From contig JBCDMB010000021.1 in the NCBI GenBank assembly GCA_038744685.1, forward strand, positions 1 through 59,900: 59,900 bases of DNA, given 5' to 3'. This document shows, one piece after another, positions 2,460 through 27,666 of the stretch. Under the pieces are notes generated by a model. It made no database searches. It was not told where the DNA came from and worked only from the letters and a program-made list of their open reading frames with translations. Positions within the stretch are counted from its first letter, which is position 1, and each line of letters opens with the position of its first letter. Source of the stretch: Verrucomicrobiota bacterium. Its GTDB lineage: Bacteria > Verrucomicrobiota > Verrucomicrobiia > Opitutales > Puniceicoccaceae. The translations under genes were made by a program, and so were the position numbers.

Positions 2460-2460
2460 A

Positions 2461-3756: not shown

Positions 3757-3821
3757 ATTTTTTTTCTAAAATCTCTATTTAACAGTGTCGCCTATCCTTG
3801 TTTTGTCCAAAGCTCACAAAC

Positions 3822-4702: not shown

Positions 4703-5359
4703 ATGGTGAAAGATAATCCTGTTTATTTTTACGGGGTTGCTTCTTCGTATACGAAAGACTGTGCAGAGATTGCTGATCAGTCGAAGAGAAAAATACTCGG
4801 CTATATTCACAATCAGCCGACAGAACCAGTTCCAGACGGCCTGGAGCCGCTTTTTCAGATTAGTGACCTGGGCCACTGTGATCGTAACATTCCAGTGGTG
4901 ATTCCCCTGATTACGCCGAACTTTCGAAAGAGGCTGAAGGTCGAGGTTCTCGATCATGGATTTCGCGCTTTTGCCGATATGCTACACCCTTCTGCAGTAA
5001 TCGCACGATCCTGTCGTTGGGGACCAGGGCTGAGTGTCAATGCGGGCGTGGTGGTTGCTGCCAACACCCACTTCGGAGAACATGTCTTGATCAACCGAAG
5101 TGTCTCCATCGGGCACGACGTCGAAGTTGAGGACTACGTGAGCTTTGGTCCAGGTGCTGTTCTGGGCGGGCAGATCAAGATTGGCGAGGGAGCCTTTATC
5201 GGAGTCAACGCGACGATTTTACCGGGTGTCGTGGTTGGGCCTAACTCGATCGTTGGAGGTGGAGCGGTTGTGACCAAAGAGGTTCCTGCCAACTCGGTCG
5301 TCGTGGGTAATCCTGCGACTGTTATTCGGACAGGGATTCAGGGCTACAACTCGAATTAG
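4703..5359 (+). CDS. NeuD/PglD-like sugar O- or N-acyltransferase (left-handed beta helix)
   Basis: 218 aa. The N-terminal half (to about residue 90) is a small Rossmann-like part; residues from about 95 show hexapeptide repeats (for example VNAGVVVAANTHFGEHVLIN, then GEGAFIGVNATILPGVVVGP), ending in KEVPANSVVVGNPA. This is the NeuD/PglD architecture. These trimers transfer an acyl group from acyl-CoA to a sugar amino or hydroxyl group. A His in RSVSIGHDVEVED fits the catalytic position. Its neighbours FdtA and FdtB make a 3-amino sugar, so N-acylation of that amine is the simplest role. The acyl donor could be acetyl-CoA or the product of the adjacent BKACE. Confidence 0.8.
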   Translation: MVKDNPVYFYGVASSYTKDCAEIADQSKRKILGYIHNQPTEPVPDGLEPLFQISDLGHCDRNIPVVIPLITPNFRKRLKVEVLDHGFRAFADMLHPSAVIARSCRWGPGLSVNAGVVVAANTHFGEHVLINRSVSIGHDVEVEDYVSFGPGAVLGGQIKIGEGAFIGVNATILPGVVVGPNSIVGGGAVVTKEVPANSVVVGNPATVIRTGIQGYNSN

Positions 5360-5382
5360 AAAGCACTTTGAGCTTGTTCGAA

Positions 5383-5799
5383 ATGGATCCAAAGAGTCCT
5401 AGAGTATCCTATGTAGAGTTCTCTCCGTTCACGGATTCCCGTGGTCAGCTCGTGTCGATTGAAGAGAACGTCAGTGTGCCTTTTCCCATAGCTAGGATCT
5501 ACTACCTGTGTGGGACGCCGGGAGGCTCCCGCCGCGGAGATCACGCCCACAAAACTCTACGCCAAGTTGCAGTCGCTGTTGCAGGGTCCTGTGAAACGAC
5601 TTTGGACGAGGGTGCCGGCGAGGTGACTGTTACTCTCAACGGCCGTGATCGGGGAATCCTGATTGAGCCCGGCGTATGGCATACCATGCATACGTTTTCA
5701 GAGGATTGTGTTCTTTTGGTATTAGCCGACCAGCCTTACGAGGAGGAAGATTACATAAGAGATTATGATGAATTCTTAAGATGGATCCAGAGAGCATAA
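5383..5799 (+). CDS. fdtA: FdtA/WxcM-type dTDP-4-keto-6-deoxyglucose 3,4-ketoisomerase
   Basis: 138 aa from ATG 5383; a TTG at 5368 would add five residues. A cupin-fold protein with [12 protein letters not shown] (His54 and His56, the catalytic pair of the family), [20 protein letters not shown] and the closing [14 protein letters not shown] signature. FdtA and its relatives move the keto group of dTDP-4-keto-6-deoxyglucose from C4 to C3 so that an aminotransferase can place an amine at C3. Its end overlaps the aminotransferase gene by 19 bp. Whether the product is the gluco (Qui3N) or galacto (Fuc3N) form cannot be decided by eye. RmlA/RmlB for dTDP-sugar supply are not in the window. Confidence 0.85.
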
Positions 5800-6926
5800 A
5801 GTTCCTCGATCTCAAAGCCGTCAACGAACAGTACCGGGACGAAATTGACGCAGCAATTGCCCGCGTCCTAGATTCGGGCTGGTATCTGCTTGGGCAAGAG
5901 GGTGAACTGTTTGAGCAAGAATTTGCTGAGTATTGCGAAGTCAAGCACTGTCTTGGCGTAGCCAATGGTCTTGATGCGCTCATTCTCATTCTCATGGCCT
6001 ATTGTGAATTTGGATTCATGGAGACCGGCGATGAGGTCATCGTTCCAGGGAATACCTGTATCCCGTCGATTCTTGCAATCACCCGAGCCGGCTTGAACCC
6101 CGTCCTGGTCGAACCGGATGAGCGCACCTACAACATTGATCCTGCGCTGATCGAGCTAGCGATTACCGATCGGACTCGGGCGATCATGGCGGTCCACCTC
6201 TACGGACAGTGTGCGGACATCGATCCGATCATTACGATAGCCGAAAAGCATGGTCTTAAGGTCATCGAAGATGTTGCTCAGGCGCAAGGAGCGACCTATC
6301 GAGGGCGGAAGGCTGGATCACTGGGAGACGCTGGAGCTTTCAGCTTCTACCCATCGAAGAACTTGGGTGCACTGGGGGATGGCGGCGCGGTTACGACCGA
6401 TGATTCGGACCTTGCAGGGGCGGTAAAAGCGCTCCGGAACTACGGATCGCATAAAAGAAATTACAATAAATACAAAGGCCTCAACAGCCGCCTTGATGAG
6501 CTTCAAGCGGCTATTCTTCGCGTGAAGCTCCGTCACCTTGGCTCAGACAACGAAAGGCGGGAGACTCTAGCGTGTGCTTACCAGAGCGAACTGGGTATTT
6601 TCAATCACCTGAGGTCGCTCATCCTCCCGTATGTGGCAGACTACGGGAAGCACGTTTGGCACCTTTTTGTTATCCGTCATCCTCAGCGAGACCAGCTGGC
6701 GGAGGCACTGTTGGCGAAAGGTATTCAAACCGCAATTCACTACCCAGTGCCTCCACACAAGCAGGACGCCTTTCCGGAATTACGCCGGTTTTCGCTACCG
6801 ATTACGGAGGTCATTCACCGGGAAGTGTTGAGTCTGCCGATCGGGCCCACGATGGGTTCCTCTGAAGTCGAATATATTATTAGGCAAGTAAATGAAGTGC
6901 AATCTGTTGGTACCGGGATTTGCTAA
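5781..6926 (+). CDS. fdtB: DegT/DnrJ/EryC1/StrS PLP-dependent sugar aminotransferase (FdtB-like)
   Basis: 381 aa, full length for the family. The PLP lysine is Lys193 in [16 protein letters not shown] and the cofactor-contacting Asp is Asp164 in [10 protein letters not shown]. It would transaminate the C3-keto sugar made by the preceding FdtA using glutamate, giving dTDP-3-amino-3,6-dideoxyhexose. It overlaps the ketoisomerase gene by 19 bp and the following sulfotransferase gene by 35 bp, so the genes are likely translated together. Family certain; positional specificity rests on the FdtA neighbour. Confidence 0.88.
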
Positions 6927-7731
6927 GTGTGCGACAAGTAGTCTCCACAAATACCTGGATCTGCATCCTGAGATTTGCATGTCATCCAGAAAAGAGCCGC
7001 ATTATTTCTCGTTAAAGGCAGTTTATGAAAAAGGGGCGAGCTGGCATGATTCACTATTCGACCATGCAGATGAAAATTCCAAATTTTTCGGTGAATCGAG
7101 TACAAGCTACTCAACTTGGGAGCCCGCTTTAGTCCGAATCAAAAAGGAACTGATTCGACCTAGAATTATATTGATTCTAAGAGACCCTTTGGAGCGACTC
7201 TTGTCTCACTACCGATGGATGTATGCTATTGGTTTTGAAAACGAAAAACTCCCCAAGGCCTTGAAAGTTGAAGCAGGATCTCCTGTCGATATAGAGATCA
7301 GTAGAGGGGGTTGTTATCCTTGGTACTTTCGAAAGAGTAAGTATAGCTATTTTGTCCCCTTAATTGAGATCATTTTTGGCGAAGAGAATGTTCTTCTGAT
7401 TCGAACCGAAGACTTGGCTCAGAAGCCTTCCAAGGTGATGGATTATTGTTTCAATTTTCTTCAAGTGGACGCTTTTGATATTGGTGAATCCCGAATGGAA
7501 TTTAACAAAACTGCCAACAAGAGAGTGCAAAATGGAGCGTCTATAGTCTCTTTGCACGATAAGCTTCCTAGTCGTTTTCGCCACATGATAAAGCCTTACT
7601 ACGGAAAGCTATTGACGTTGTTAGGGAAAAGAAAGCGAGTAGCACCGGAGCCAAGTGATGTTTTCCTAGACGATTTGAGGGCGCTTCTTGAAGATGACTT
7701 CAAGGAATACAGCCGGGCTACTGCCTTGTAA
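6892..7731 (+). CDS. Sulfotransferase family protein (first of three)
   Basis: 279 aa. The N-terminal PAPS 5'-phosphosulfate loop is [15 protein letters not shown] (residues 8-22). The 3'-phosphate-binding strand and helix is [20 protein letters not shown] with Arg97 and Ser105. This is the pattern of carbohydrate sulfotransferases of the heparan/NodH type, which move sulfate from PAPS to a sugar hydroxyl or amine. The start lies inside the end of the aminotransferase gene. The acceptor is unknown; in this context it is a residue of the exported glycan. No PAPS synthesis genes are in the window. Confidence 0.85.
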
Positions 7732-8797: not shown

Positions 8798-9610
8798 ATG
8801 CCCTTTAATCTTGGTTGGATAATGCAGGCAGATGTCAGGAATTTGGAAGCAATCGTGGTGGGGGGGTTCCCCAAAAGTGGTTGCACTTGGTTGACCCGCA
8901 TGGTCGCAGACTTGGTCGAGTGTCCCGTCGTTAATTTTTTAGGGGCGAAAAACGATTACCATGAAATCGCCCGCGAAGGTGAATCGCGGCATTCGCGATT
9001 TGGGTGTTATAAAAGCCATTTCGATCTAGACCAGTTGGATAGATGGCCAATTCGACGAAGTCGGGTGGTCTATATTATCCGTGATCCGCGCAGCATATTT
9101 CTATCAGGAATCGATCACTTCGAATTCAAGGCTGTTGAGTTTTTTCCTCGTATTGCCTATACACGGAACGGAAGGAAGTTCGTCGATTTTCTCTTCAAGA
9201 AGAGGTTCTTTAGGGGGTTTCTGTTCGAAAGAATTTTGATGAAGGGTAAGGCGCCTCCACGGTTCTCAATAACGAAATCATGGGATGAGCATGTGCTGTC
9301 TTTTTTGGACTCTGGTGTTCTATGCTTACAATACGAAAAACTACTGGATGATCCCTTCGAACAGCTTCGACTGGTTCCAAGCCACCTAGAAATGGAGATC
9401 GAAGATAACCGAGTCGAAGAGGTCATTGACAGACAATCATTTTCCAAGCGGAAAAAGGAGTTTGAGGAGAAAGGGGATCACAGACGTGCCAGCTTTTTGA
9501 GAGAGGGCGCTCGGGATCCTTGGAGAAATCAAATGGGAGCCAAAAGATCGGATCGAGTTTTTAGTCGCTTCAAACCGGTTATGAAGCGTTTGGGATACGA
9601 AGCTTGTTAG
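8798..9610 (+). CDS. Sulfotransferase domain protein (second of three)
   Basis: 270 aa. The PAPS loop is GGFPKSGCTWLTRM near residues 22-35, closer to the cytosolic/PF00685 pattern than the other two sulfotransferases here. The 3'-phosphate motif is RVVYIIRDPRSIFLSGIDHF, and the C-terminal part has FLREGARDPWRNQM, close to the conserved RKGxxGDWKN loop. The start is ATG 8798, preceded by a purine-rich GAGGTGATCTGAG; ATG 8822 is an alternative. The 133-bp gap at 8665-8797 shows no further feature. It would transfer sulfate to a glycan in this pathway; acceptor unknown. Confidence 0.83.
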   Translation: MPFNLGWIMQADVRNLEAIVVGGFPKSGCTWLTRMVADLVECPVVNFLGAKNDYHEIAREGESRHSRFGCYKSHFDLDQLDRWPIRRSRVVYIIRDPRSIFLSGIDHFEFKAVEFFPRIAYTRNGRKFVDFLFKKRFFRGFLFERILMKGKAPPRFSITKSWDEHVLSFLDSGVLCLQYEKLLDDPFEQLRLVPSHLEMEIEDNRVEEVIDRQSFSKRKKEFEEKGDHRRASFLREGARDPWRNQMGAKRSDRVFSRFKPVMKRLGYEAC

Positions 9611-10932: not shown

Positions 10933-11957
10933 AAACCGCGCTGATTACAGGAATTACCGGACAAGACGGCTCTTATCTTGGCGAGTTTCTTCTGGCGAAA
11001 GGTTACGAGGTTCACGGGATCGTTCGCCGGGCAAGCATGTTCAACCGCTCTCGTATCGAACACTTGCGGGCAGATCCAAAAGTCTACGGGGAGAGGCTGT
11101 TCCTACACTACGCGGATCTACAGGATGTAACTAGCTTGAGGAGGATATTCCGAGATGTGGCACCAGTCGAAGTATACCATCTTGCCGGCCAAAGTCATGT
11201 TGGCTTGAGCTTTGCAGTTCCTGAATCGACGCTCCAAGAGGTCAGTGTCTCCACGCTTTCCATTCTCGAAATTTGCAGAGATCTTCCCGTTTCCCCCCGC
11301 ATCTATCATGCCTCGTCAAGCGAGGTTTTCGGAATCCCGGATACAGTGCCACAGGATCTTTCGACAGCATTCCGGCCCGAGAACCCTTACGGCTGTGCCA
11401 AAGTCTTTGCGACCTCGATGTGTCGCGTTTACCGTCGGGTGCACGGACTGTTTGTGGTTTCTGGAATCGCCTACAATCACGAATCGCCGCGACGGGGTGA
11501 GAACTTCGTCACTCGAAAGATTGCATCAGCGGCGGCGAGGTGGCACGCCGGCGATCACACTCCAATAGAGGTTGGAAACCTCGATGCTGCTCGTGATTGG
11601 GGATACGCGCCCGAATATGTCGAAGCTTTCTGGAAAATGCTTGGGAGAGAGAATCCGGAGGACTTCGTTCTGGCCACTGGAGAGATGACGCGGCTGAGAG
11701 ATTTCATCTGCCATTGCTTTTCTGCGGCAGGAATTGATTTGAATTTCGAAGGTCAGGGATTGGAAGAGAGAGCAGTGGACGCGGAATCAGGGAAGGAGGT
11801 TCTTCGTGTCTCGGAACGGTTTTTCAGGAAAGTAGATACAGGTAATCTTGTGGGCGATCCCTCGAAGGCGAAAGAGAAACTCGGGTGGAAAGCGGAGACC
11901 CGAGGGATTAGGTTGGCGGAGGTTCTTGTTCAGGCGGAGATTGACGCATTCGTGTGA
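10929..11957 (+). CDS. gmd: GDP-mannose 4,6-dehydratase
   Basis: 342 aa extended SDR. NADP-binding GITGQDGSYLGEFLL lies at residues 8-22, RRASMFNRSRIEHL (33-46) is the Gmd signature after beta-2, and the active site is Ser130/131-Glu132 plus Tyr154-x3-Lys158 in NPYGCAKVF. It makes GDP-4-keto-6-deoxymannose, the precursor of GDP-L-fucose, GDP-D-rhamnose, colitose and perosamine. No GDP-fucose synthase (fcl) or reductase gene follows, so the end product depends on a gene elsewhere. Overlaps by 4 bp with both neighbours. The fucosyltransferase-like protein at 16827 makes GDP-fucose a reasonable guess. Confidence 0.9.
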   Translation: MKTALITGITGQDGSYLGEFLLAKGYEVHGIVRRASMFNRSRIEHLRADPKVYGERLFLHYADLQDVTSLRRIFRDVAPVEVYHLAGQSHVGLSFAVPESTLQEVSVSTLSILEICRDLPVSPRIYHASSSEVFGIPDTVPQDLSTAFRPENPYGCAKVFATSMCRVYRRVHGLFVVSGIAYNHESPRRGENFVTRKIASAAARWHAGDHTPIEVGNLDAARDWGYAPEYVEAFWKMLGRENPEDFVLATGEMTRLRDFICHCFSAAGIDLNFEGQGLEERAVDAESGKEVLRVSERFFRKVDTGNLVGDPSKAKEKLGWKAETRGIRLAEVLVQAEIDAFV

Positions 11958-12772
11958 GTGCTGATTTGGCCAAGAGGTGGCGACAAGCAACGGCGTCTTT
12001 GCGGTTGTTGCCAGACTTCATTATTCCGGGAGAAGCGAAATGTGGAACAACGTCACTGTATAATTATCTGTGCCAACATCCGGGAGTCTTGGCGGCATCG
12101 ATGAAGGAGCCGAACAACTTCTGGCGCCACGGAGCAAGTCCGTTCCAATGCCGGCAGTACTATCCTCTGAGGTCCCTAGAGTTTTTGCGGGTGTTGCGAG
12201 GCCAGCGAACTACTACCGGTGAAGCAAGCCCCGAGTATCTAAGCAAACCCGGAGTGGCTCGTTCGGTTCGGGAAGTTGTTCCGGAAGTGAGGTTGATTTT
12301 CCTATTCCGGGATCCGGTTGAAAGAGCTTTTTCGGATCATCAAATGCTAGTGAAAGCGGGTGTCGAGAAGGGTTCTTTCAGGGATAGAATAAAGGCCTCT
12401 CTTAGTTGGTGGAATGGAGCGGATACTCGTGAATTGCTTATAGCGTGCAATGGACTAGAGCATCATCCCGGCCGCTATTTGCTGCGCGGCTTGTACGCCG
12501 ACAATCTCGTGGAGTGGACGAAGGAGTTTACCCATGCAAAAATGCTCTTCGTGGAAAGCGAGGAAATGTTTGAGAACCCTCAAGAGGTGATGAAAACGGT
12601 TTTCGGTTTTTTGGGATTGGCGCCTTGGGAGGGGGGCGATTGGCCCATCCTAAAGAAAGGTGAGTATGGGGAGGATTTTGATCCGGAGCTCAGAGAAGAG
12701 CTAAGAGAGTTTTATCACGAGCCAAACCAACGGCTTGAGAGGATAACCAACCGGAAATGGCGATGGGCTTGA
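11954..12772 (+). CDS. Sulfotransferase family protein (third of three)
   Basis: 272 aa from GTG 11954, overlapping the gmd stop by 4 bp. PAPS loop PGEAKCGTTSLYNYL (residues 25-39), then the acceptor-side helix and EASPEYLSKPG, and the 3'-phosphate motif VRLIFLFRDPVERAFSDHQM. This resembles the carbohydrate/NodH-heparan sulfotransferase type. Its tight coupling to gmd suggests that the sulfated residue could be the 6-deoxyhexose derived from GDP-mannose; that is inference from position only. Confidence 0.85.
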   Translation: MSADLAKRWRQATASLRLLPDFIIPGEAKCGTTSLYNYLCQHPGVLAASMKEPNNFWRHGASPFQCRQYYPLRSLEFLRVLRGQRTTTGEASPEYLSKPGVARSVREVVPEVRLIFLFRDPVERAFSDHQMLVKAGVEKGSFRDRIKASLSWWNGADTRELLIACNGLEHHPGRYLLRGLYADNLVEWTKEFTHAKMLFVESEEMFENPQEVMKTVFGFLGLAPWEGGDWPILKKGEYGEDFDPELREELREFYHEPNQRLERITNRKWRWA

Positions 12773-18057: not shown

Positions 18058-19380
18058 ATGAAGTTCCTCTTCCCCATATTCCGTTTCAACTGGTATCGGA
18101 CGGTAGCTCCCATAATTGATGAAGTTCTTAGTCGAGGGAATGAGGTGGTTTGCCTTCACAATGAGAGCACGAGCAATTTTTCGTCGAATCGACCGGATGA
18201 GTCTTTGCTTCCGAAATGGGCTAACGGATCTCCCAGTTACGACTCTTACCATTCTGAGCAAGAGCTTTGGGAAAAAGTAAGCCGCACAGATGCCGATATT
18301 GTGGTTAGCATAGACCTTCCGTTGGATGAGTGGATAGACCGAGAAGAATGGAAGAGGCGAAAATTCCTTTACTTAACGGTGGCTACTACGGATACCTTGC
18401 GACGGCTGTGGGGACCAAACATGCTGGCGGCGACGGATTTTATCTCCGTCCGTTCCGAATGGGAACGTGATGCCTGCATCCTTGATCACACCGTGGATTA
18501 TTGTCCGTGGATCAGAAGGTGTGATGAGATGGGAATCGATGGGAACCGTTACCGCCCGTTGATGGAGCCGCGTCTCGGCAAGGAATGGCCTGAATCAATG
18601 ATTGAGGATTTTCTGTGTAAGACTCTGGTGGCCGGATACCCTCTCTTGGATGGTGTTTCCCTGATTGATCGGGACGAGGTCTTTCGGCGGAGGCGTTTGA
18701 ATCCGGAAAAACCTGTGATTGGTCTTTGGTCTACCCCAACACTGGGTAGGGGGTACTATGGGACTTGGGATCGCATTTTCGCGCAACGGGATCAGGTGCG
18801 ATTTCGATACCGGGCGTTGAGAGGATATGGCCTTCGTGGTTTAACGATTCCGTATTGCAACGAAGAAACCGTGCTTCGCTCGATTCGGGATTTTGTAGAC
18901 CACAATAATGCACAGCTTGTTGTGAAATTGCGACATTACCAGGGGCCGGAGGAAAGTCTTTTCACTCGTTTCGCTGATGGGGTTGTTACAGAGGATAATT
19001 ACTATCCCCATTCTGCCCTGGAGTTGGCTTGTATTGCAGATCTAATGATCGGATTTCATACTGCTGGTATGCCAGAGGCTGTATTTGCAGGGGCACCTGT
19101 TCTAAACCTTACCATCCCCGGCTTTGACACTGAAATTCATGCAAAAACCATGCACTTCTTCGATGGAATGTTTGAATCGAAAGGAGTGGTGACACGCATG
19201 GGAAGTGTAGAGGCAGCTCGTAATCTAGACAGCTTCCGACTGGATGAATTTCGGTTCGAGGAAGAGGCTAGGGAGGATTATCTAATGAAGTTTGCAGGTC
19301 CACGAAGGAATACGGACCTTAGCTTCTCTGCTAACTTAATGGAACAACTAGAGTCGCGTTTAGCGGCAGAGACAGGATAG
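18058..19380 (+). CDS. Unknown protein, GT-B-like, of polysaccharide locus
   Basis: 440 aa starting MKFLFPIFRFNWYRTVAPII. This opening and the later SALELACIADLMIGFHTAGM-PEAVFAGAPVLNL segment look like surface-glycan GT-B proteins (the HxxxxE-type loop of CDP-glycerol or UDP-GlcNAc 2-epimerase-like folds). VVKLRHYQGPEESLFTRFAD fits the strand before that loop. I do not recognise a specific family. It lies 109 bp after the fucosyltransferase-like gene and 12 bp before the SpsF-like gene. Confidence 0.55.
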   Translation: MKFLFPIFRFNWYRTVAPIIDEVLSRGNEVVCLHNESTSNFSSNRPDESLLPKWANGSPSYDSYHSEQELWEKVSRTDADIVVSIDLPLDEWIDREEWKRRKFLYLTVATTDTLRRLWGPNMLAATDFISVRSEWERDACILDHTVDYCPWIRRCDEMGIDGNRYRPLMEPRLGKEWPESMIEDFLCKTLVAGYPLLDGVSLIDRDEVFRRRRLNPEKPVIGLWSTPTLGRGYYGTWDRIFAQRDQVRFRYRALRGYGLRGLTIPYCNEETVLRSIRDFVDHNNAQLVVKLRHYQGPEESLFTRFADGVVTEDNYYPHSALELACIADLMIGFHTAGMPEAVFAGAPVLNLTIPGFDTEIHAKTMHFFDGMFESKGVVTRMGSVEAARNLDSFRLDEFRFEEEAREDYLMKFAGPRRNTDLSFSANLMEQLESRLAAETG

Positions 19381-19392
19381 GTTTTCTCGTTT

Positions 19393-20154
19393 ATGAGTGA
19401 AAATACAGTAGCGATAGTAGTCTCTCGTATGGGCTCGTCCCGGCTTCCTGGAAAGGCTCTGATGGATATCTGCGGTGAGCCGATGGCAGGTCGGATTATC
19501 GAAAGGGTAAGTCTGGCTCCTTCGGTCGATGAGGTCATCATTGCGACCTCGACTCTTCCTGAAGACGATCAGTTGGAGGAGTTTGCGAAGAGTCGTGGAG
19601 TGAGGTTTTTTCGCGGTTCTCCCGATGATGTCCTAGGGCGAATCACAGAAGCAGCTCGCTTCGCGGAGGCTGATATCGTTCTGGACCTAATGGGAGATAA
19701 TCCACTCGTGCATTCCGAGATGGTAGAAGATGTGATAGAGTTCTTTCGCAGAACCGATTGTGACTTTGTTTCTAGTGTGACTACCGAGTTTCCGCATGCC
19801 CCAAAAGAGATGCCCAAATTTCCCATTGGGTTACGGGTTCAGGTGATGACAATGGCCTGCCTTGAAAAGTGCGAGGATCTGGCCGCGTCTGAGGAGCACC
19901 GTGAGCACGCTACCAAATACATCTTCGATAACCCGGAGCATTTCAAAGTCGGGTACTACCCTGCATCAGGAAAATGGCAAGAGCTCAATCGACCTGAACT
20001 GACATTTGCTGTGAATTACGGCGTTAATCTCGATCTGATTCGAAAGATCTACTCCGTCGCGGTAAAGGATGACCCCAATTTTGGAATGCATACGATCCTC
20101 CGTGTGTTTGAGGAGAATCAGGAGTGGATACCGCTGATGGGAAACCAGAAATAA
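19393..20154 (+). CDS. spsF: SpsF/NeuA-like cytidylyltransferase family protein
   Basis: 253 aa. The nucleotide loop is [18 protein letters not shown] (about residues 9-26), close to the SpsF consensus; the metal Asp lies in [11 protein letters not shown] (about 98-108). SpsF of the Bacillus spore-coat polysaccharide operon and its relatives are predicted sugar or acid nucleotidyltransferases. The NeuB-like synthase gene follows 23 bp downstream with its own ribosome-binding site, the same SpsE/SpsF pairing. It probably activates the acid or sugar made by the neighbouring enzymes. Confidence 0.8.
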
Positions 20155-20177
20155 CTGTTAGAACAAAGGAAGAAACC

Positions 20178-20864
20178 ATGCTCTATATCGCAGAAATTGG
20201 ACTGAACTATAACGGCAATTTTGACCTCACCTATGAGATGATCAGGCAGGCGAAGCATGCGGGTGCGGATATCGCGAAGTTCCAATGCGGTTGGCGTCAG
20301 GGGAAGGACGAGATTAACCATCTCAACCCGGAGAGACTCTTAAAACTCAAACGATGGTGCGATTACTTCGAAATCGAATTTGCCTGTTCCGTGTTTACTC
20401 AGGAGTCTTATGCGATGGTGAAAGAGGCTGGGGCAACCCGTTTCAAGATTGCCTCGAGAACGGTAAAGGATGATCCGGATCTTGTTGAAAAGGTTGTCGC
20501 AGAGAATAGGGATACGATCATCTCCCTCGGGATGTGGGGAGATGAGAGCAAGGTTCCGATAGACTCTTCCGAAGTTCATTACCTCTACTGCAAATCGATC
20601 TATCCAAGCGAACCATGGGATATGGTTGAACTTCCTAAGAACTTTGAAGAATCCAGATACTCAGGCTACAGCGATCACACAGTTGGGATAGAGACTGCAC
20701 TGATAGCGATCGTTCGGGGAGCGAAGATCATCGAAAAGCACCTGACTCTTGATAAATCCGATACGACGATTCGGGATCACGCTTTGAGTGCGACGCCAGA
20801 AGAGTTTGGGCAGATGGTTCGACTGGGACGGGACATCGAGAAGAAGCTCAGTTTGGGCGTTTGA
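20178..20864 (+). CDS. N-acetylneuraminate synthase-like protein (NeuB/SpsE barrel only, no SAF domain)
   Basis: 228 aa from ATG 20178, chosen because AAAGGAAG lies just upstream and the family N-terminus [12 protein letters not shown] follows at once. NeuB motifs: [55 protein letters not shown] and the metal/PEP motif [12 protein letters not shown]. Usual NeuB/SpsE proteins are about 340-370 aa with a C-terminal antifreeze-like (SAF) domain; this one stops after the barrel. It should condense phosphoenolpyruvate with an aldose. Lack of the SAF domain, which helps form the active site in NeuB dimers, makes the substrate uncertain. Confidence 0.78.
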
Positions 20865-20865
20865 G

Positions 20866-21570
20866 ATGAAATTTGTCCTCCTGTCGACCAAAGGAATTCA
20901 CCACACCTATTTCATTCATCGAGTCTTGGAGGCCGGTTTCGAGATCGATTCCGTTTTCTACGAGACGGGAATTCTCAAACCACCTTTTGATGTCACGAGC
21001 AGATTTGATAATTCCCAGAGGATTTATGAGGAACGAGTATTTGGTGAGTATTCGTTAGAGGATCCCTCATCGTTAACTTACTTTCAATTCAAGAGTCTCA
21101 ACTCGGATGCAGCGGTCCAAGCAATCAAAGAACGCAAAGCGGATATCGGAATTGTATTCGGTTGTGGGAAGCTCGATACGAGTGTCATTCAGTGCTTCCC
21201 TTTACTCCTAAATATCCACAAGGGATTTGCGGAGAGGTATCGTGGGCTGGATACGGATCTATGGCCTATTTTTCACGCCGAGTATCGGAATATTGGAGTG
21301 ACTTTACACAAGGTTGCTCCCTCCCTCGATACTGGTGATCTGGTTGAAGCGTTGCCTGTATTTTTAGGGCGGGGGATGAAGATTGAAGAGCTTCGGGTCG
21401 CTTGGGTGAAACTGGCTACGGAGATGTCGATTCGTAGTTTAGAAAAGTTCGAGAAAGGGACTCTTGAGACCACGAAACAGAAGTCGATAGGGCGCTACTA
21501 TACGTTCATGCCGAGTGACTTGAGAAACTTGGCCGCAGACCGTTTTGATCGTTTTTGCTCTCGGTTGTAG
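20866..21570 (+). CDS. Formyltransferase-fold protein, probable sugar N-formyltransferase
   Basis: 234 aa from ATG 20866, one base after the previous stop. It has the formyltransferase catalytic triad Asn116-x-His118 (LLNIHKGFAERYRG) and Asp155 (LDTGDLV), with GVTLHKV between them, as in methionyl-tRNA and sugar formyltransferases that use N10-formyl-tetrahydrofolate. The C-terminal tRNA-binding domain of Fmt is missing, which favours a small-molecule amine such as an amino sugar as acceptor. Context (NeuB-like and deacetylase genes) fits formylation of an amino sugar exposed by deacetylation. Confidence 0.78.
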   Translation: MKFVLLSTKGIHHTYFIHRVLEAGFEIDSVFYETGILKPPFDVTSRFDNSQRIYEERVFGEYSLEDPSSLTYFQFKSLNSDAAVQAIKERKADIGIVFGCGKLDTSVIQCFPLLLNIHKGFAERYRGLDTDLWPIFHAEYRNIGVTLHKVAPSLDTGDLVEALPVFLGRGMKIEELRVAWVKLATEMSIRSLEKFEKGTLETTKQKSIGRYYTFMPSDLRNLAADRFDRFCSRL

Positions 21571-21572
21571 GC

Positions 21573-22487
21573 ATGGAGAATCATCTGACCATCCTTCTCT
21601 ACCACGGGGTCACCAGACTGCGGAGCGCAGGCATCGAGAATTACTCCGGAAAACACATTTCTGAGAACGACTTTCGGCAGCAAATGAACTTGGTTTCTAT
21701 CAAATACCATCCGCTCTCGATAGATGAGGTCGTTGAGATTCACGAAGCGGGTGAGTCATACCCAGCGAATGCTGTTGTCGTGAGTTTTGATGACGGTTTT
21801 GAGAACAATCATGACATTGCGGCCCCCATCCTCAGTGATCTCGAAGTTCCTGCAGTCTTTTATCTGTCCACTGGTATCGTCGGAACCGGACGAATGTTCT
21901 GGGTGGACCAAATTGAAGACGTCTTAAACCGGTCTGAGAAGGAGGAGATCGAAATAGCCCTCGGGGCTGAACCGATTTCATTTTCTCTGGGCAGTCAGCG
22001 GCTTCGGATTCAAGCACTGGAAACGATTAAGGACTACTGCAAAAGATCCGAGGCTGCCGAGAAAGATCGAGTTGTTCTTGAACTCGTAGAGGCCGCTGGA
22101 GTGAAGCCGGATGTGAATGCGTCTGGGAACTACAAGGCCATGACTTGGGAAAAGGCGAAACGACTCAACGGAGATCCTCTTTTTACCGTGGGAGGGCATA
22201 CCATGAATCACAATATTCTTACCCGGCTTGAACCTTTTGAGATGGAGAGGGAAATTACAGAGTCGCTTAAAGCAATCCGACGGGAGACTGGAGTAAAACC
22301 ACGTCACTTCAGCTATCCAGAAGGTCAGGCAGATCATTTCGACGAAGGCGTTATTGAATGTTTGAAGAACTCGGAAGTCGTATGCTCTCCCTCCGCTATC
22401 GATGGGGTGAATCGGCGTGAGTTTGACCTATTCAACCTCAGAAGGATTATGCCTGGATTTTTGGGTAGAGAGTTTCCTCTGAGCTAG
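21573..22487 (+). CDS. Polysaccharide deacetylase (NodB/CE4) family protein
   Basis: 304 aa from ATG 21573, two bases after the previous stop. Early motif LTILLYHGVT, then the catalytic/metal Asp pair in VVVSFDDGFENNHD (Asp73, Asp74) and the metal HxxxH in VGGHTMNHNIL, then RHFSYPEGQ. The family removes N-acetyl groups from sugars with a divalent metal. No signal peptide or membrane anchor is visible, so it may act in the cytoplasm on a biosynthetic intermediate, giving the free amine for the formyltransferase encoded just before it. Confidence 0.83.
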   Translation: MENHLTILLYHGVTRLRSAGIENYSGKHISENDFRQQMNLVSIKYHPLSIDEVVEIHEAGESYPANAVVVSFDDGFENNHDIAAPILSDLEVPAVFYLSTGIVGTGRMFWVDQIEDVLNRSEKEEIEIALGAEPISFSLGSQRLRIQALETIKDYCKRSEAAEKDRVVLELVEAAGVKPDVNASGNYKAMTWEKAKRLNGDPLFTVGGHTMNHNILTRLEPFEMEREITESLKAIRRETGVKPRHFSYPEGQADHFDEGVIECLKNSEVVCSPSAIDGVNRREFDLFNLRRIMPGFLGREFPLS

Positions 22488-22501
22488 TTTTCTAGAGGTA
22501 G

Positions 22502-22541
22502 TTTCTGGGAACACTCCATTTCCACTCAGTTCCAGAAATTA
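22502..22541. repeat. Inverted repeat in gap before 2-hydroxyacid dehydrogenase
   Basis: TTTCTGGGAAC and GTTCCAGAAA pair around a loop of about 19 nt with one bulged G. An A-rich run follows but no U-run, so it is a weak terminator candidate at best. The rest of the 167-bp gap (22488-22654) shows no gene. Confidence 0.35.
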
Positions 22542-22654
22542 ATTCAAAAAACGACTTCGAGTTTTTGTCAGCTGACTTGTCGGAAGGAGAAGAATCGCTG
22601 GCGTCTCGGGTAGTTTTCGACTCTTCTCCAATTTTCCTCTCACTTACTTGATTG

Positions 22655-23599
22655 ATGTATCTTTTCTCCGCTCCATTTGAGTTTCTTGAACCCGAATTTC
22701 GAGCGGAGCTTACACGGGACAATCCGTTAGAATTTCGATTGATCAATGAAGAGGATGAGCTCGGGTTTGACGAGAGAGTCACTTGCTGGATTCCAAATCC
22801 TGGACAACGTTTTACCGCGAGGGCCTCGGTGTTGAGGGCGTTTCCCAACCTAAAGCTGATCTCAACGCCTTCCACAGGATCGAACCACATTGACCGCGAT
22901 TTTTTCGCTGAGAAGGGAGTGGCCGTCCGGTCGCTGCTGGACAACCGGCCTCGGCTTGCAAGCATTCGAGCGAGTTCGGAGTTCACCCTTTTGTTGGTGC
23001 TCTCGTCGCTTCGGAAGATACGCACGGCTTTTCTCGAACTTGACGAGAAGCGCTGGCGCCACCGCGAGGAGGTTATGCGGGGGAGCGAAGTAATCGGGCA
23101 AAAGGTGGGGATCGTTGGAATGGGACGCAATGGGTCGAATGTCGCTCGCTGGTTAACCGCGATGGAGGCCGATGTTCGCTATTTTGATCCTTACAAGAAG
23201 GAACCTCCGGGAAAGATTGATTCGATCAAACAATTGTTCGAGGAATCCCAGATTGTCATCCTTACAGTGGTTTTGACGAATGAGACTGAGGGAATGGTCG
23301 GGCGTGACTTGCTTGAGAGGCTTCCCCTTGGTGCCCATCTGATCAATACCTCTCGCGGAGAGATCATTAATGAGAACGAGCTAGCTGTGTTTCTTGATGA
23401 GCGGGAAGATGTTTCTTACGCGGCTGATGTGGTCACTGGTGAAGTGGACGGGAGGCCGTTTGAGTCTCCGCTTTATGAGCTTTACCTTAGAAATAGAGTC
23501 ACTCTCACTCCACACATCGCGGGCGTGAGTTTTGGATCACAAACCAAGGCAGCGCTGGGGGCTCTTGAGAATGTCAGGGATTTCTTAAAAGAGGTCTAA
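22655..23599 (+). CDS. D-isomer-specific 2-hydroxyacid dehydrogenase family protein
   Basis: 314 aa from ATG 22655. The NAD domain begins with KVGIVGMGRNGSNVARWLTA; the catalytic Arg is in LINTSRGEIINENEL and the active-site His in LTPHIAGVSFGS. It would interconvert a 2-keto acid and a D-2-hydroxyacid with NAD(P). In this locus the substrate might be a keto acid of the NeuB-like product or a glyceryl/lactyl substituent precursor; this is inference. The stop overlaps the next start by one base. The regulatory ACT domain of SerA is absent. Confidence 0.83.
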   Translation: MYLFSAPFEFLEPEFRAELTRDNPLEFRLINEEDELGFDERVTCWIPNPGQRFTARASVLRAFPNLKLISTPSTGSNHIDRDFFAEKGVAVRSLLDNRPRLASIRASSEFTLLLVLSSLRKIRTAFLELDEKRWRHREEVMRGSEVIGQKVGIVGMGRNGSNVARWLTAMEADVRYFDPYKKEPPGKIDSIKQLFEESQIVILTVVLTNETEGMVGRDLLERLPLGAHLINTSRGEIINENELAVFLDEREDVSYAADVVTGEVDGRPFESPLYELYLRNRVTLTPHIAGVSFGSQTKAALGALENVRDFLKEV

Positions 23600-25023
23600 T
23601 GAGTAACGAAGGAAAAAGTCCGTTCTTAGTCACAGTCTACGTGACCAGTCATAACTATGGACGGTTCTTACGAGAGGCTTTGGATAGCGTTCTCAAGCAG
23701 ACTCTGGATAGTTGGGAGCTCATTGTTTTGGATGACGGCTCAAGTGACGATTCGGCCGAAATCGCGGAAGAGTATGCGAAAGCAGATCCTGATCGGATTC
23801 TTGTCATTGCAACGAAGGAATCACGGGGTCTCCGGGCGTGTGCCAATGAAGCAATCGAGAAAGCACGAGGACGCTATATTATGCGTCTTGATGCAGATGA
23901 TTTTCTGGATGAGAACGCGCTTCTGGTGCTCTCCCACTATCTGGAAAGGCATCCTGAAGTCGGGTTGGTCTTTCCGAATTGGGTTTATATCGACGAGGGC
24001 GGAAGATTTCTAGGGATTGAGCGACGAAAGTTGATTGGGGAAGAATCCAAGGTTTTGGATCTACCCGCGCATGGAGCGTGCACGATGGTTCGGCGCAGAA
24101 TTCTCAAAAGTGTTGGTGGTTACGACGTGAATCACGATTCTCAGGATGGGCACGAGTTGTGGCTCAAGGTTCTCGACCGTCACGAAGTGGCGAATGTCGA
24201 AACTCCGCTCTTCTACTACCGACAGCATGGTTCTTCCATGAGCCGTAACGAGGAACGGCTTCTTGCGGCCCGGCGAACAATCAAGCGGTCTCTGGCTTCC
24301 CGAGAAAGTGGAGAAGTGAGTCCGAGGATTGTCGCGGTAATTCCTGCAAGAAACACTTATAAGGAAATGCCGAATGTGGTTTTCTCTTATCTTGGCGGGA
24401 AAACGCTCCTCGATCACACCCTGGATGAAACGCGAACGACGGGAGTGTTTGATACGATCTACGTGTCGACCGATGATGCCGCAGTTGTTGAATACTGTCG
24501 GAATCAAGAGGGTGTACTCTCGGACCTCCGTGACCCGAAGTTATCTGATTCGCACGTGCGTTTATCAGAGCTTGCCGTTGCTGCTGTTGAGCGGCTGGAA
24601 AGTGTCCACAGCGTCTTTCCCGACATTGTTGTGGTCCTTAGTGTTCACTCTCCATTTCGAAGAGCCGCTCACATTCAGGAGGCGGTCGACACGCTGAAAC
24701 TTTACAGGGTAGACAATGTCTTCAGCGCGTATGAAGACTTTGACCTTCATTTTCAACATGGGGAGAACGGTATGTCTCCTCTCAACCCGGGTATGATTGA
24801 TCGTCTGAGGTATGAGCGGGAGGCACTGTTTGTTGACAATGGTGCCTTGCATGCGTCCTGGAGGGACTTTCTCAGGGAGGACAACCTCTACGAGGGTCGA
24901 ATCGGCCATATAATAATGACGCGGCAAGAGAGTCTTCAGATTAAGAGTCAGAAAGACTTGGAATACGCCAACTGGCTTTTATCGAATGAACATTTGGTTA
25001 GTTCGATGTCCCATGAAAAGTGA
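23599..25023 (+). CDS. Fusion: family 2 glycosyltransferase + CMP-sialate-synthetase-like cytidylyltransferase
   Basis: 474 aa. Residues 1 to about 230 are a complete GT2 domain: VTVYVTSHNYGRFLREALD, IVLDDGSSDDS, IMRLDADDFLD, and DSQDGHELWLKV. Residues from about 237 are a NeuA/KdsB-type domain: RIVAVIPARNTYKEMPN, TIYVSTDDAAVVEYC, VVVLSVHSPFRRAAHIQEAV and FVDNGALHA. The usual nucleotide loop (ARgGSKGxPxKN) is altered to ARNTYKEMPN, lacking the Gly-Ser. Either the domain uses a modified loop or is catalytically weak. Joining activation and transfer in one chain would channel the activated sugar. No stop or frame change separates the parts. Confidence 0.82.
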   Translation: MSNEGKSPFLVTVYVTSHNYGRFLREALDSVLKQTLDSWELIVLDDGSSDDSAEIAEEYAKADPDRILVIATKESRGLRACANEAIEKARGRYIMRLDADDFLDENALLVLSHYLERHPEVGLVFPNWVYIDEGGRFLGIERRKLIGEESKVLDLPAHGACTMVRRRILKSVGGYDVNHDSQDGHELWLKVLDRHEVANVETPLFYYRQHGSSMSRNEERLLAARRTIKRSLASRESGEVSPRIVAVIPARNTYKEMPNVVFSYLGGKTLLDHTLDETRTTGVFDTIYVSTDDAAVVEYCRNQEGVLSDLRDPKLSDSHVRLSELAVAAVERLESVHSVFPDIVVVLSVHSPFRRAAHIQEAVDTLKLYRVDNVFSAYEDFDLHFQHGENGMSPLNPGMIDRLRYEREALFVDNGALHASWRDFLREDNLYEGRIGHIIMTRQESLQIKSQKDLEYANWLLSNEHLVSSMSHEK

Positions 25024-25116: not shown

Positions 25117-26454
25117 ATGAAAATTGCAATCATAGGACTAGGCTACGTGGGTCTCCCCCTCGCAATTCGTTTTGCAGAAGCTGGCGTTAAAGTCATTGGC
25201 CTTGACGTGGATCCAGCAAAAGTGGAGGCGCTCAACAACGGAGAGAGCTACATCCGCCACATACCAGGAAAAACGATCAGTGCCCTGAATGAAAAGGGTG
25301 CCTTCATCGCGTCGACGAATTTTTCCAGGGTTTCTGAAGTGGAGGCTGTCTTGATTTGTGTTCCCACTCCTCTCGATGTTCACCGGGATCCCGATCTCTC
25401 CTTTGTGCTCAGTTCAGGAAAAGCGATCGCTCCGTTTCTGGGGAGTCAGGATTCAGAAGGCAGCAGCGAGGAGACTCGCGTAGCATCGACTGCCAAGCCG
25501 ATGACAGAGGATGCAATCCCCAAATTGGTGGTTCTGGAAAGTACGACCTATCCGGGAACGACGGATACAGACCTTCGTATGGTTCTGGAAGAAGGCTCTG
25601 GGTTGAAAGCAGGTGACGGTTTCTACCTTGCTTACTCGCCGGAAAGGGAAGATCCGGGACGAACGGACCACTCGGTGCGGACCATTCCAAAGGTTATGGG
25701 TGGTTACACAGAAGCCTGTCTCAAGCGCTGTGAGGAGATTTACTCCCTTGCAGTCGATGAAACCCACCCGGTGTCTTCCTGCCGTGTAGCCGAAGCGACA
25801 AAGTTGACGGAGAACATTTTCCGATCCGTTAACATCGCCTTGGTGAATGAGCTCAAGGTGGTATACGAGAAAATGGGGATCGATGTCTGGGAGGTAATCG
25901 AAGCCGCCTCCACAAAGCCATTTGGGTACATGCCGTTTTATCCCGGCCCGGGGTTGGGAGGGCACTGCATCCCGATTGATCCGTTTTACCTTACCTGGAA
26001 AGCGAGAGAGTATGGGATGCATACCCGGTTTATCGAACTCGCGGGGGAGGTTAATACCCGCATGCCGGACCACGTGGTTTCACGGGTCGGCGAAGTTTTA
26101 AATGAGGATGGGAAAGCAATTCGAGGTTCGAGGATCTTACTGCTCGGGATCGCATACAAGCCCGGCGTGGATGATGATCGAGAGTCTCCATCCTACGTCC
26201 TGATGAAATCATTAGAGGATAAAGGTGCTTCCGTTTTCTACAACGATCCTTACGTTCCAGAGATTCGTCCTTCCCGCCACTTTTCGGAGTTTGCAGGCAG
26301 GCGTTCGGCACCAATCTCTGACGATTACGATCTGATTCTCGTGGCGACTCATCATCCGGAATACCTGAATTTCGACTTTTCGGATGTCGAAACACCAATC
26401 GTTGACACTCGTAGTTGCCTTAGGAGGCCGGGGAAGAGGTATTGGAAAGCGTGA
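25117..26454 (+). CDS. UDP-HexNAc/UDP-hexose 6-dehydrogenase (WbpA/WecC-like)
   Basis: 445 aa. Rossmann motif IGLGYVGLPLAIRFAEAG (residues 6-23), NAD-binding CVPTPLD (81-87), catalytic Cys284 in GPGLGGHCIPIDPFYL, and the C-terminal UDP-binding domain. It oxidises C6 of a UDP-sugar twice to a uronic acid; the FYPGPGLGGHCIP form is typical of UDP-GlcNAc dehydrogenases (WbpA, VipA). Residues about 108-134 form a Ser/Glu/Thr-rich insert not usual in the family. The epimerase encoded 156 bp downstream would then act on the uronate. The 93-bp gap before it shows nothing. Confidence 0.87.
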   Translation: MKIAIIGLGYVGLPLAIRFAEAGVKVIGLDVDPAKVEALNNGESYIRHIPGKTISALNEKGAFIASTNFSRVSEVEAVLICVPTPLDVHRDPDLSFVLSSGKAIAPFLGSQDSEGSSEETRVASTAKPMTEDAIPKLVVLESTTYPGTTDTDLRMVLEEGSGLKAGDGFYLAYSPEREDPGRTDHSVRTIPKVMGGYTEACLKRCEEIYSLAVDETHPVSSCRVAEATKLTENIFRSVNIALVNELKVVYEKMGIDVWEVIEAASTKPFGYMPFYPGPGLGGHCIPIDPFYLTWKAREYGMHTRFIELAGEVNTRMPDHVVSRVGEVLNEDGKAIRGSRILLLGIAYKPGVDDDRESPSYVLMKSLEDKGASVFYNDPYVPEIRPSRHFSEFAGRRSAPISDDYDLILVATHHPEYLNFDFSDVETPIVDTRSCLRRPGKRYWKA

Positions 26455-26610: not shown

Positions 26611-27666
26611 ATGAAATATCTAATTACTGGTGCAGCCGGATTTATCGCCTCGCGCACGGCCCGGATGCTTCTTGAGCAGGGGCATTATGTGGTCGGAGTA
26701 GACAACCTGAATGACTATTATGATCGCCGGTTAAAGTTGAATCGACTGGCGATCATAGGAAAGGAGACGGGATCGAGTCCGGAAGTCGTTCAAAGAATCG
26801 ATCAAAGTGTTCGTTCAGAATCCGAGGAGATTCCAGCCGTTGATTTTGATGCACCCTCATTTACGTTTCGGAATCTTGATATCGAGGACAAGGACGCGGT
26901 GCTCGGTTTGTTCGAAGAGCATTCGTTCGATGCAGTTCTCAACCTCGCTGCTCGAGCCGGGGTTCGATACAGTATGGAGAATCCGGACGTCTACATGATG
27001 ACCAATGCCATGGGAACTCTTCACCTCATGGACGGTATGAAGAACAAGGGCGTGAAAAAAATGGTCCTGGCGTCGACCTCTTCGCTCTATGCGGGGCAGG
27101 AGATGCCTTTTACCGAGGATCTACCCGTCAATACGCCTATCTCACCATACGCCGCATCCAAAAAGGCGGCAGAGGCATTGGCTTACAGCTACAGTCATCT
27201 TTACGACTTGGATATCTCGGTATGTCGTTACTTTACAGTTTTTGGACCGATGGGTCGTCCGGATATGTGCGTTTTCCGTTTTATCCGTTGGATTAACGAG
27301 GGTGAGACGATGGAACTGTTCGGAGATGGTTCGCAGTCGAGGGATTTCACTCACGTCGATGATATCGCACGAGGGACAATCGCGGCCCTTCGACCAGTAG
27401 GGTATGAGGTGATCAATCTCGGGGGAGGAAACAACCCGATCTCGTTGAAACAGATCATCGCGTGGATTGAGGAAATGCTGGGAAAGAAGGCGGTCATCGA
27501 GAACAAGCCTTTCCACAAGGCGGACATCATGGAAACGTGGGCGGACATCTCCAAGGCGGAAAAGCTCTTGGGGTGGAAGCCGAAAGAGGGAATTCGTGAA
27601 GGCGTTCAGCAGTGTGTCGATTGGTATCTAGTGAACCAAGACTGGCTGTCGAAGGTGCGGATGTAG
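26611..27666 (+). CDS. NAD-dependent UDP-uronate 4-epimerase-like SDR (CapI/Gae/WbpP type)
   Basis: 351 aa extended SDR. Dinucleotide loop TGAAGFIASRTARMLLEQGH (residues 6-25; the third Gly of GxxGxxG is Ala13). VDNLNDYYDRRLKLNRL is the hallmark of UDP-glucuronate 4-epimerases. The active site is Ser157-x22-Tyr180-x3-Lys184 in SPYAASKKAAE. It would epimerise C4 of the UDP-uronate (or UDP-HexNAcA) produced by the upstream dehydrogenase. Short repeat arrays flank the gene on both sides. Confidence 0.85.
   Translation: MKYLITGAAGFIASRTARMLLEQGHYVVGVDNLNDYYDRRLKLNRLAIIGKETGSSPEVVQRIDQSVRSESEEIPAVDFDAPSFTFRNLDIEDKDAVLGLFEEHSFDAVLNLAARAGVRYSMENPDVYMMTNAMGTLHLMDGMKNKGVKKMVLASTSSLYAGQEMPFTEDLPVNTPISPYAASKKAAEALAYSYSHLYDLDISVCRYFTVFGPMGRPDMCVFRFIRWINEGETMELFGDGSQSRDFTHVDDIARGTIAALRPVGYEVINLGGGNNPISLKQIIAWIEEMLGKKAVIENKPFHKADIMETWADISKAEKLLGWKPKEGIREGVQQCVDWYLVNQDWLSKVRM

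Follow-up and report, generated by a model that had tools for sequence, protein, structure and literature searches.

A six-gene cassette with a small SAF-less NeuB-family synthase and a predicted sugar N-formyltransferase in a Verrucomicrobiota surface-polysaccharide cluster

In a 59,900-nucleotide (nt) stretch of DNA from a Verrucomicrobiota bacterium of the family Puniceicoccaceae (GenBank assembly GCA_038744685.1, contig JBCDMB010000021.1, positions 1 to 59,900; here called the window), a long surface-polysaccharide cluster hosts six + strand genes at 19393-25023. They encode, in order, an SpsF-type cytidylyltransferase, a NeuB-like synthase, a formyltransferase, a carbohydrate esterase family 4 (CE4) deacetylase, a D-2-hydroxyacid dehydrogenase and a fusion of a family 2 glycosyltransferase (GT2) with a cytidylyltransferase domain. 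We put it at slightly better than an even chance that this cassette makes and attaches an N-formylated, cytidine monophosphate (CMP)-activated 2-keto-3-deoxy sugar acid (an ulosonic acid), built on an altered acceptor, within the surface-polysaccharide cluster. The reading is based on gene identities, a NeuB/SpsF/fusion core, deacetylase-formyltransferase-NeuB and NeuB-dehydrogenase neighbourhoods and residue changes, all computed directly. From SpsF to the fusion the genes are spaced by 23, 1, 2 and 167 nt, and the dehydrogenase stop overlaps the fusion ATG by one base. ATG start codons are found at 20866 (formyltransferase), 21573 (CE4), 22655 (dehydrogenase) and 23599 (fusion). An earlier reading of the same DNA (the original prediction) had described these six genes, with the formyltransferase and the deacetylase a few bases from the SpsF-like and NeuB-like genes, and all six were found on the + strand with Pfam support.

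The synthase gene (20178..20864, + strand) encodes 228 amino acids (aa) and matched the Pfam NeuB family (1.5e-35; PF03102 score of 123.3 bits against a curated cut-off of 22.1). The protein is a TIM barrel alone; the chain stops four residues past the matched barrel and no SAF domain follows. In a tree of bacterial homologs it falls in a clade of five (SH-aLRT, an approximate likelihood ratio support, of 98 in this smaller tree). The phosphoenolpyruvate (PEP) and metal residues equal to NmeNeuB E25, K53, Q55, K129, H215 and H236 are kept in the window enzyme and in 5/5 clade members, and the S132 equivalent is also kept in the window NeuB (alignment to PDB 1xuu). Position 134 (NmeNeuB numbering) is Thr in the window NeuB with Arg before it (motif KIASRT).

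A barrel survey covered 70 non-redundant NeuB barrels from the genome samples, with duplicates and pieces shorter than 180 aa dropped. A C-terminal extension of SAF size (at least 71 residues) is found in 59 of them, except that one extension, at a locus cut by a contig end, has 46 residues. The other 11 barrels are short and SAF-less; five are those of the window clade and six fall at three separate places on the NeuB tree. SAF loss as such was dropped as the novelty because SAF-less forms recur across the tree and one has a solved structure (PDB 6ncs). The original prediction was right about the absence of SAF, a loss that is not unusual by itself. An acidic residue (E/D) is present at position 134 in 57 of the 59 SAF-bearing barrels, in two of the six other SAF-less ones and in none of the window clade, in which Thr or Ser stands there, preceded by Arg (R-motif; such enzymes are called R-type below). 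SAF-less NeuBs with Val or Met at position 134 are found at loci L020, L027, L032, L061 and relatives (L codes denote loci and G codes genomes). The loss of SAF and the loss of the residue-134 acid coincide outside the window clade too.

E134 of NmeNeuB is presumably one of a set of three glutamates. In the available part of PMC7591256, three NmeNeuB glutamates are proposed to stabilise the intermediate. The SAF residue Arg314 of NmeNeuB holds N-acetylmannosamine (ManNAc), as described in the accessible text of PMC6795526, and residues near positions 132 and 184 track the substrate in known NeuBs according to the portion available of PMC7371886. The window NeuB has neither the SAF domain with the acceptor-binding Arg314 nor the position-134 acid. 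Because both are lost, we infer that the acceptor of the small NeuB differs from ManNAc-type substrates, and this is our main argument. The missing SAF had earlier been taken to hint at a changed substrate or at a partner protein; the double loss favors the first, and no partner protein supplying SAF was found.

The formyltransferase (20866..21570, + strand) matched Formyl_trans_N (1.9e-9; 37.9 bits against a cut-off of 26.1) and shows the N-H-D residues (NIH, LDTGD), the domain and residues by which a sugar N-formyltransferase is recognized. It has the N-H-D residues and an RG[LV]D motif in common with phage homologs. The CE4 polysaccharide/N-acyl deacetylase (21573..22487, + strand) matched Polysacc_deac_1 (1.7e-18), and its motifs SFDDG and HTMNH were identified by eye. 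IMG/VR contigs, which are predicted to be viral, were scanned with a five-row NeuB alignment, and 80 of 299 loci were kept. NeuBs from the fusion scan were added, and clustering at 85% identity left 79 of 92 viral NeuB rows, over which the pairing of formyltransferase and deacetylase was counted. A formyltransferase plus a deacetylase was found within 4 kb of NeuB at 13 of 44 R-type or very-short-tailed loci (8/25 R-type and 5/19 other very-short-tailed) versus 0 of 35 other IMG/VR NeuB loci (0/17 short-tailed and 0/18 SAF-bearing; Fisher p 0.0003, uncorrected for relatedness). On the NeuB tree this label requires four changes. Four of the 44 loci, which came from the fusion scan (L190, L194, L196 and L198), perhaps encode other barrel enzymes; the count is 13/40 without them. 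A control scan of IMG/VR with the SAF-bearing NeuB from L007 gave no confirmed match, and the controls are the SAF-bearing and short-tailed NeuBs from the main scans.

The viral deacetylase is of the PIG-L family and that of the window is CE4. The use of different deacetylase families for the same step points to function rather than shared descent alone. One viral order that is common runs cytidylyltransferase, PIG-L deacetylase, formyltransferase, NeuB, GT2, sulfotransferase-like gene, epimerase and uridine diphosphate (UDP)-sugar dehydrogenase. Cassettes with these genes are found on the IMG/VR contigs of L152, L125, L154, L138 and relatives. These contigs are likely from marine T4-like phages; a weak late-sigma-factor match in L152 fits a T4-like phage. 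Searches of phage records gave one weak match with a viral NeuB query, three with the window NeuB and three weak ones with the formyltransferase. One NeuB match, on a Moritella contig, lies in an ordinary NeuA-NeuB-epimerase run; another, on a Kyanoviridae contig, has an SpsF-type enzyme and a 272-aa NeuB and showed no formyltransferase or deacetylase match. Plasmids gave no formyltransferase match.

The most serious alternative, which we still regard as unlikely, is that the formyltransferase (and perhaps the CE4 enzyme) serves a deoxythymidine diphosphate (dTDP)-3-amino-sugar branch of the same polysaccharide, its position between NeuB and CE4 being incidental. Such a branch is encoded on the + strand at 4703..6926 by genes for a NeuD/PglB-family acetyltransferase, an FdtA-type ketoisomerase (FdtA 2.5e-43) and a DegT aminotransferase (1.8e-105), the last two within 5368-6926. 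The best solved relatives of the formyltransferase are sugar 3-N-formyltransferases, among them QdtF (PDB 4xcz, 7e-11) and WlaRD. They have the same Formyl_trans_N fold and N-H-D residues; by their names they act on dTDP-3-amino sugars, whereas the window enzyme is linked to NeuB and a deacetylase, starting 1 nt past NeuB and ending 2 nt ahead of CE4. Homologous formyltransferases with RG[LV]D directly adjoin small NeuBs in the viral contigs, and when the window FdtA served as a query, no viral-locus open reading frame among those listed had it as its best match. The amino-sugar branch also has its own NeuD-family acyltransferase. These points speak against this alternative.

The dehydrogenase (22655..23599, + strand) matched 2-Hacid_dh_C (8.6e-39). 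GMGRNG and the R-E-H residues were found by eye, in alignment with the enzymes of L068, L109 and L161. In L109 and L110 (IMG/VR) a small NeuB is followed directly by a dehydrogenase with 41-45% identity to that of the window. These two loci are near-copies (their dehydrogenases are 93% identical), and their NeuBs group with those of the window and L006 (SH-aLRT 98) in a larger NeuB tree. Further copies of the dehydrogenase lie beside NeuA in L068 and L161. In the fusion loci L063, L064 and L065, a LarA-type 2-hydroxyacid racemase abuts the fusion in the dehydrogenase's stead. The presence of two unrelated 2-hydroxyacid enzymes in like places suggests that the route passes through a 2-hydroxy or 2-keto acid. 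The LarA-type homolog, predicted to be nickel-dependent, has a NeuA-NeuB fusion on one side and the GT2 fusion on the other (L063:1528-2787, L064:6759-8018, L065:6283-7554); no mention of neuraminate or cytidylyltransferase was found in two papers on the LarA superfamily.

The larger NeuB tree was a quick one with no bootstrap and weak deepest splits; SAF-bearing genome rows were thinned to one in three, and L190, L194, L196, L198 and other viral rows were left out. With viral rows added, the five bacterial R-type NeuBs scatter among viral R-types in three places, and the clade of five is valid for the bacterial sample only.

The SpsF-type cytidylyltransferase (19393..20154, + strand) matched CTP_transf_3 (3.5e-25) and PDB 6oew (5e-25), and its N-terminal RxGSxRLPGK nucleotide loop is intact. 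The last gene (23599..25023, + strand) matched Glycos_transf_2 (4.2e-30) and CTP_transf_3 (7.3e-11); about residues 1-235 form a GT2 domain, and about residues 240-474 a NeuA-type cytidylyltransferase domain that is degenerate. Among 11 aligned fusions, columns of at least 90% identity number 55 of 231 in the GT2 part and 9 of 219 in the cytidylyltransferase part. The fused NeuA-type domain has lost the ARGGSK loop (11/11), the Gln of LxQPTxP (10/11) and the Asp of the NxD motif (10/11), and does not show the motifs of a CMP-nonulosonate synthetase (NeuA/PseF). Stand-alone NeuAs from the sampled loci keep the loop and the NxD Asp (4/4) and the Gln (3/4). These losses led us to discard the idea that the fusion is a second CMP-synthetase. 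The original prediction of a CMP-synthetase-like fusion stands as to the gene and probably fails as to the function: judged by its motifs, the fused domain is probably not a CMP-synthetase, and the protein is most plausibly a glycosyltransferase whose cytidylyltransferase domain is dead. The fusion is found in 2 of 387 sampled genomes of the window's phylum and 8 of 395 sampled Thermodesulfobacteriota genomes. Of 12 fusion loci, 11 have a member of the NeuB family within 6 kb; the remaining one is on a contig of 11 kb. NeuB and SpsF are themselves fused in one frame, in opposite domain orders, in L062:10436-12190 and L066:1907-3601.

NeuB, SpsF and the fusion occur within about 7 kb in the window, in L006 (a Thermodesulfobacteriota metagenome-assembled genome), in L068 (genome G688) and in L104 (Azospirillum argentinense plasmid p6). 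The fusion is thus present in four of the five clade members; in G059 the small NeuB has a cytidylyltransferase with it and no fusion nearby. The L006 NeuB is 56% identical to that of the window. L068 and L104 share AsnB (57% identity), NeuB (59%), the fusion (50%), SpsF (43%) and a methyltransferase (37%); L006 and L104 have a DegT aminotransferase (45%) and a Gfo/Idh enzyme (27%) in common. No NeuB match was found in the only same-genus genome sampled. The NeuB/SpsF/fusion core looks mobile. A search for the gene order in other genomes, as had been proposed, bore out the three-gene core across phyla and did not recover the six-gene set in the other bacterial loci; what the bacterial loci have in common is the three core genes, not all six. 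AsnB (asparagine-synthase-like) lies directly upstream of the small NeuB in L104:5103-7656 and L068:5566-8122, and within 4 kb in four viral loci; amidation of a sugar acid is a possible role.

Could the cassette belong to an ordinary neuraminic (Neu), legionaminic (Leg) or pseudaminic (Pse) acid pathway, with its early steps encoded elsewhere or a precursor taken up, and the small NeuB carrying out the usual reaction without SAF? PDB 6ncs is a SAF-less NeuB of 290 aa, SAF-less forms occur at several tree places, and SpsF can serve Leg synthesis in Bacillus subtilis (available text of PMC7439481). We nevertheless consider this improbable. The window's own genome (G000; 3.64 Mb in 56 contigs) has one NeuB-family gene, that of the window. 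Its sole Epimerase_2 protein, on another contig, scores as WecB (412.6 bits, cut-off 210) and not as NeuC (49.5 bits, cut-off 236), so no NeuC/LegG-type hydrolysing epimerase was found in the whole genome, NeuC is missing and there is no second NeuB-based pathway. The NeuC absence noted earlier for the window therefore extends to the genome. The window NeuB is far under the NCBIfam equivalog cut-offs (NeuB 128.5 vs 399.65 bits; PseI 94.1 vs 340.25 bits), and its clade lacks the position-134 acid and, with SAF gone, the Arg314 that NmeNeuB uses for ManNAc (PMC6795526, as above). A full known nonulosonate pathway elsewhere, with the cassette genes not co-inherited, had been named as the outcome that would speak against the original prediction; the genome has neither a second NeuB nor NeuC, and the core genes co-occur elsewhere.

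In the pathway that we favor, CE4 would remove the acetyl group from the nitrogen of a precursor, either a sugar or a sugar acid, and the formyltransferase would then put a formyl group on that nitrogen. The small NeuB, which keeps the PEP/metal residues and has lost acceptor-side elements, would condense PEP with an aldose unlike ManNAc-type acceptors, and SpsF would load the product with CMP. The GT2-pseudo-cytidylyltransferase fusion would then transfer the sugar acid, and its dead domain would be a module that binds either the CMP-sugar or the acceptor. The D-2-hydroxyacid dehydrogenase may work on some 2-keto or 2-hydroxy acid of the route.

Several observations weigh against this pathway. 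The LDT metal-ligand motif is VNY in the window SpsF, with Asp replaced by Asn; the Asp is present in 8/8 other aligned sequences. Because of this replacement, CMP activation in the window organism may be weak or carried out by another enzyme, for example a PseF-like one encoded on contig C14 of the genome. A formyltransferase and CE4 lie beside the small NeuB in only one of the five bacterial clade loci, that of the window, and no close relative of the formyltransferase other than the window's own was found in 249 phylum genomes. A formyltransferase is also found within 4 kb at 4 of 18 SAF-bearing viral NeuB loci. Formyltransferase adjacency alone was dropped as a specific sign for that reason; only formyltransferase plus deacetylase separates the groups. 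The cassette has no precursor-making enzyme of a known route. AlphaFold2 models were poor (mean pLDDT, the predicted confidence score, of 57.0 for NeuB and 39.0 for the fusion, from two-row alignments each), and no assay of any clade enzyme was found in searches of the open-licence PubMed Central (PMC) literature.

A decaying or inactive cassette has little chance of being the explanation: the fused-domain catalytic residues, the SpsF metal-ligand Asp, and the NeuB SAF and residue-134 acid are all lost, but 6/6 reading frames are intact, the fusion-motif and SAF losses are common to relatives in several phyla and so are old and conserved, and catalytic residues are kept in the formyltransferase, CE4 (by eye), the dehydrogenase and the NeuB PEP/metal site.

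The cassette is flanked by other polysaccharide genes. Upstream, a gene at 18058..19380 (+ strand) ends 12 nt before SpsF and encodes a 440-aa protein with no Pfam or NCBIfam match; it is probably a GT-B-like glycosyltransferase, named by eye only. Downstream on the same strand are a nucleotide-sugar dehydrogenase (UDP-hexose or UDP-HexNAc 6-dehydrogenase; 25117..26454, TIGR03026 394.5 bits) and a nicotinamide adenine dinucleotide (NAD)-dependent sugar epimerase/dehydratase (26611..27666, Epimerase 3.6e-56). The rest of the cluster holds ABC exporter genes (1611-3756), many glycosyltransferases and three sulfotransferase-family genes (6892-7731, 8798-9610 and 11954-12772), and these last three suggest that the polysaccharide is sulfated. 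A homolog of BKACE (beta-keto acid cleavage enzyme) is found inside the cluster at 3798-4688. In the whole of G000, CTP_transf_3 matches number four: two in the cassette, KdsB on contig C7 and the PseF-like gene on C14. At L004:1306-3277 the latter has as neighbours an HpaI-type aldolase and a homolog of NanQ-type anomerases; the group may make another CMP-ulosonic acid by way of an aldolase.

Among known systems, the window NeuB resembles NeuB/PseI/LegI synthases in its TIM barrel and in PEP/metal residues aligned to NmeNeuB, and differs from them in its length of 228 aa, the lack of SAF and an identity of about 30% or less to most SAF-bearing members. Its best solved relative, PDB 6ncs (1.1e-17; 1.2e-40 with a profile), presumably from Leptospira borgpetersenii, is likewise a SAF-less barrel; unlike the window enzyme it has 290 aa and the motif KIASCD, with Asp at position 134. 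The B. subtilis SpsE/SpsF legionaminic acid system also has a NeuB-like synthase and an SpsF-type cytidylyltransferase in one cluster (PMC7439481, available text). Its SpsE, however, is a full-length form (PDB 1vli, 385 aa), its route includes SpsC, SpsD, SpsG and SpsM, and neither a deacetylase/formyltransferase pair nor a GT2 fusion was seen in the available text of PMC7439481. The 5-N-formyl-legionaminic acid system of Halorubrum sp. PV6 yields an N-formylated nonulosonate, with a candidate formyltransferase gene among NeuA, NeuB and NeuD homologs; it differs in having all of LegB, C, H, G, I and F, of which LegG is of the NeuC type, and no mention of a deacetylase was found in the accessible part of the report (PMC6137143).

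N-formylated nonulosonates, SpsE/SpsF clusters and SAF-less NeuBs are already known. Of the earlier suggestion of an N-formylated acidic sugar outside the Neu, Leg and Pse pathways, the linkage of the genes held up in the core, the viral pairings and the dehydrogenase neighbourhoods; an N-formyl nonulosonate as such is not new (PMC6137143). No description of the small NeuB, deacetylase and formyltransferase combination or of the GT2-pseudo-NeuA fusion was found in searches of the open-licence PMC literature. More tentatively, and with appreciably less confidence than in the pathway itself, we propose that the small NeuBs that lack SAF and carry the altered 133-134 motif may be a class of their own among PEP-dependent synthases of ulosonic acids. 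They would use an acceptor other than a 2-acylamino-hexose, would have spread horizontally among bacteria and large marine phages, and would supply a route in which N-deacetylation and N-formylation lead to an N-formylated ulosonic acid not yet described; the fusion would be the first GT2-fold ulosonosyltransferase, with its dead domain as a CMP-sugar-binding module.

If this is true, sialic-acid-like chemistry would have a compact second form without the SAF that NmeNeuB-type enzymes need. The compact form would have a transferase to match, would finish with N-formylation and would move between bacteria and phages. Its enzymes, of 200-470 residues, could be tested, its product would be a candidate for a new ulosonic acid, and GT2 enzymes whose cytidylyltransferase domain is dead would gain a candidate role. 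Altered NeuBs would then be better recognized by the loss of the residue-134 acid than by the absence of SAF.

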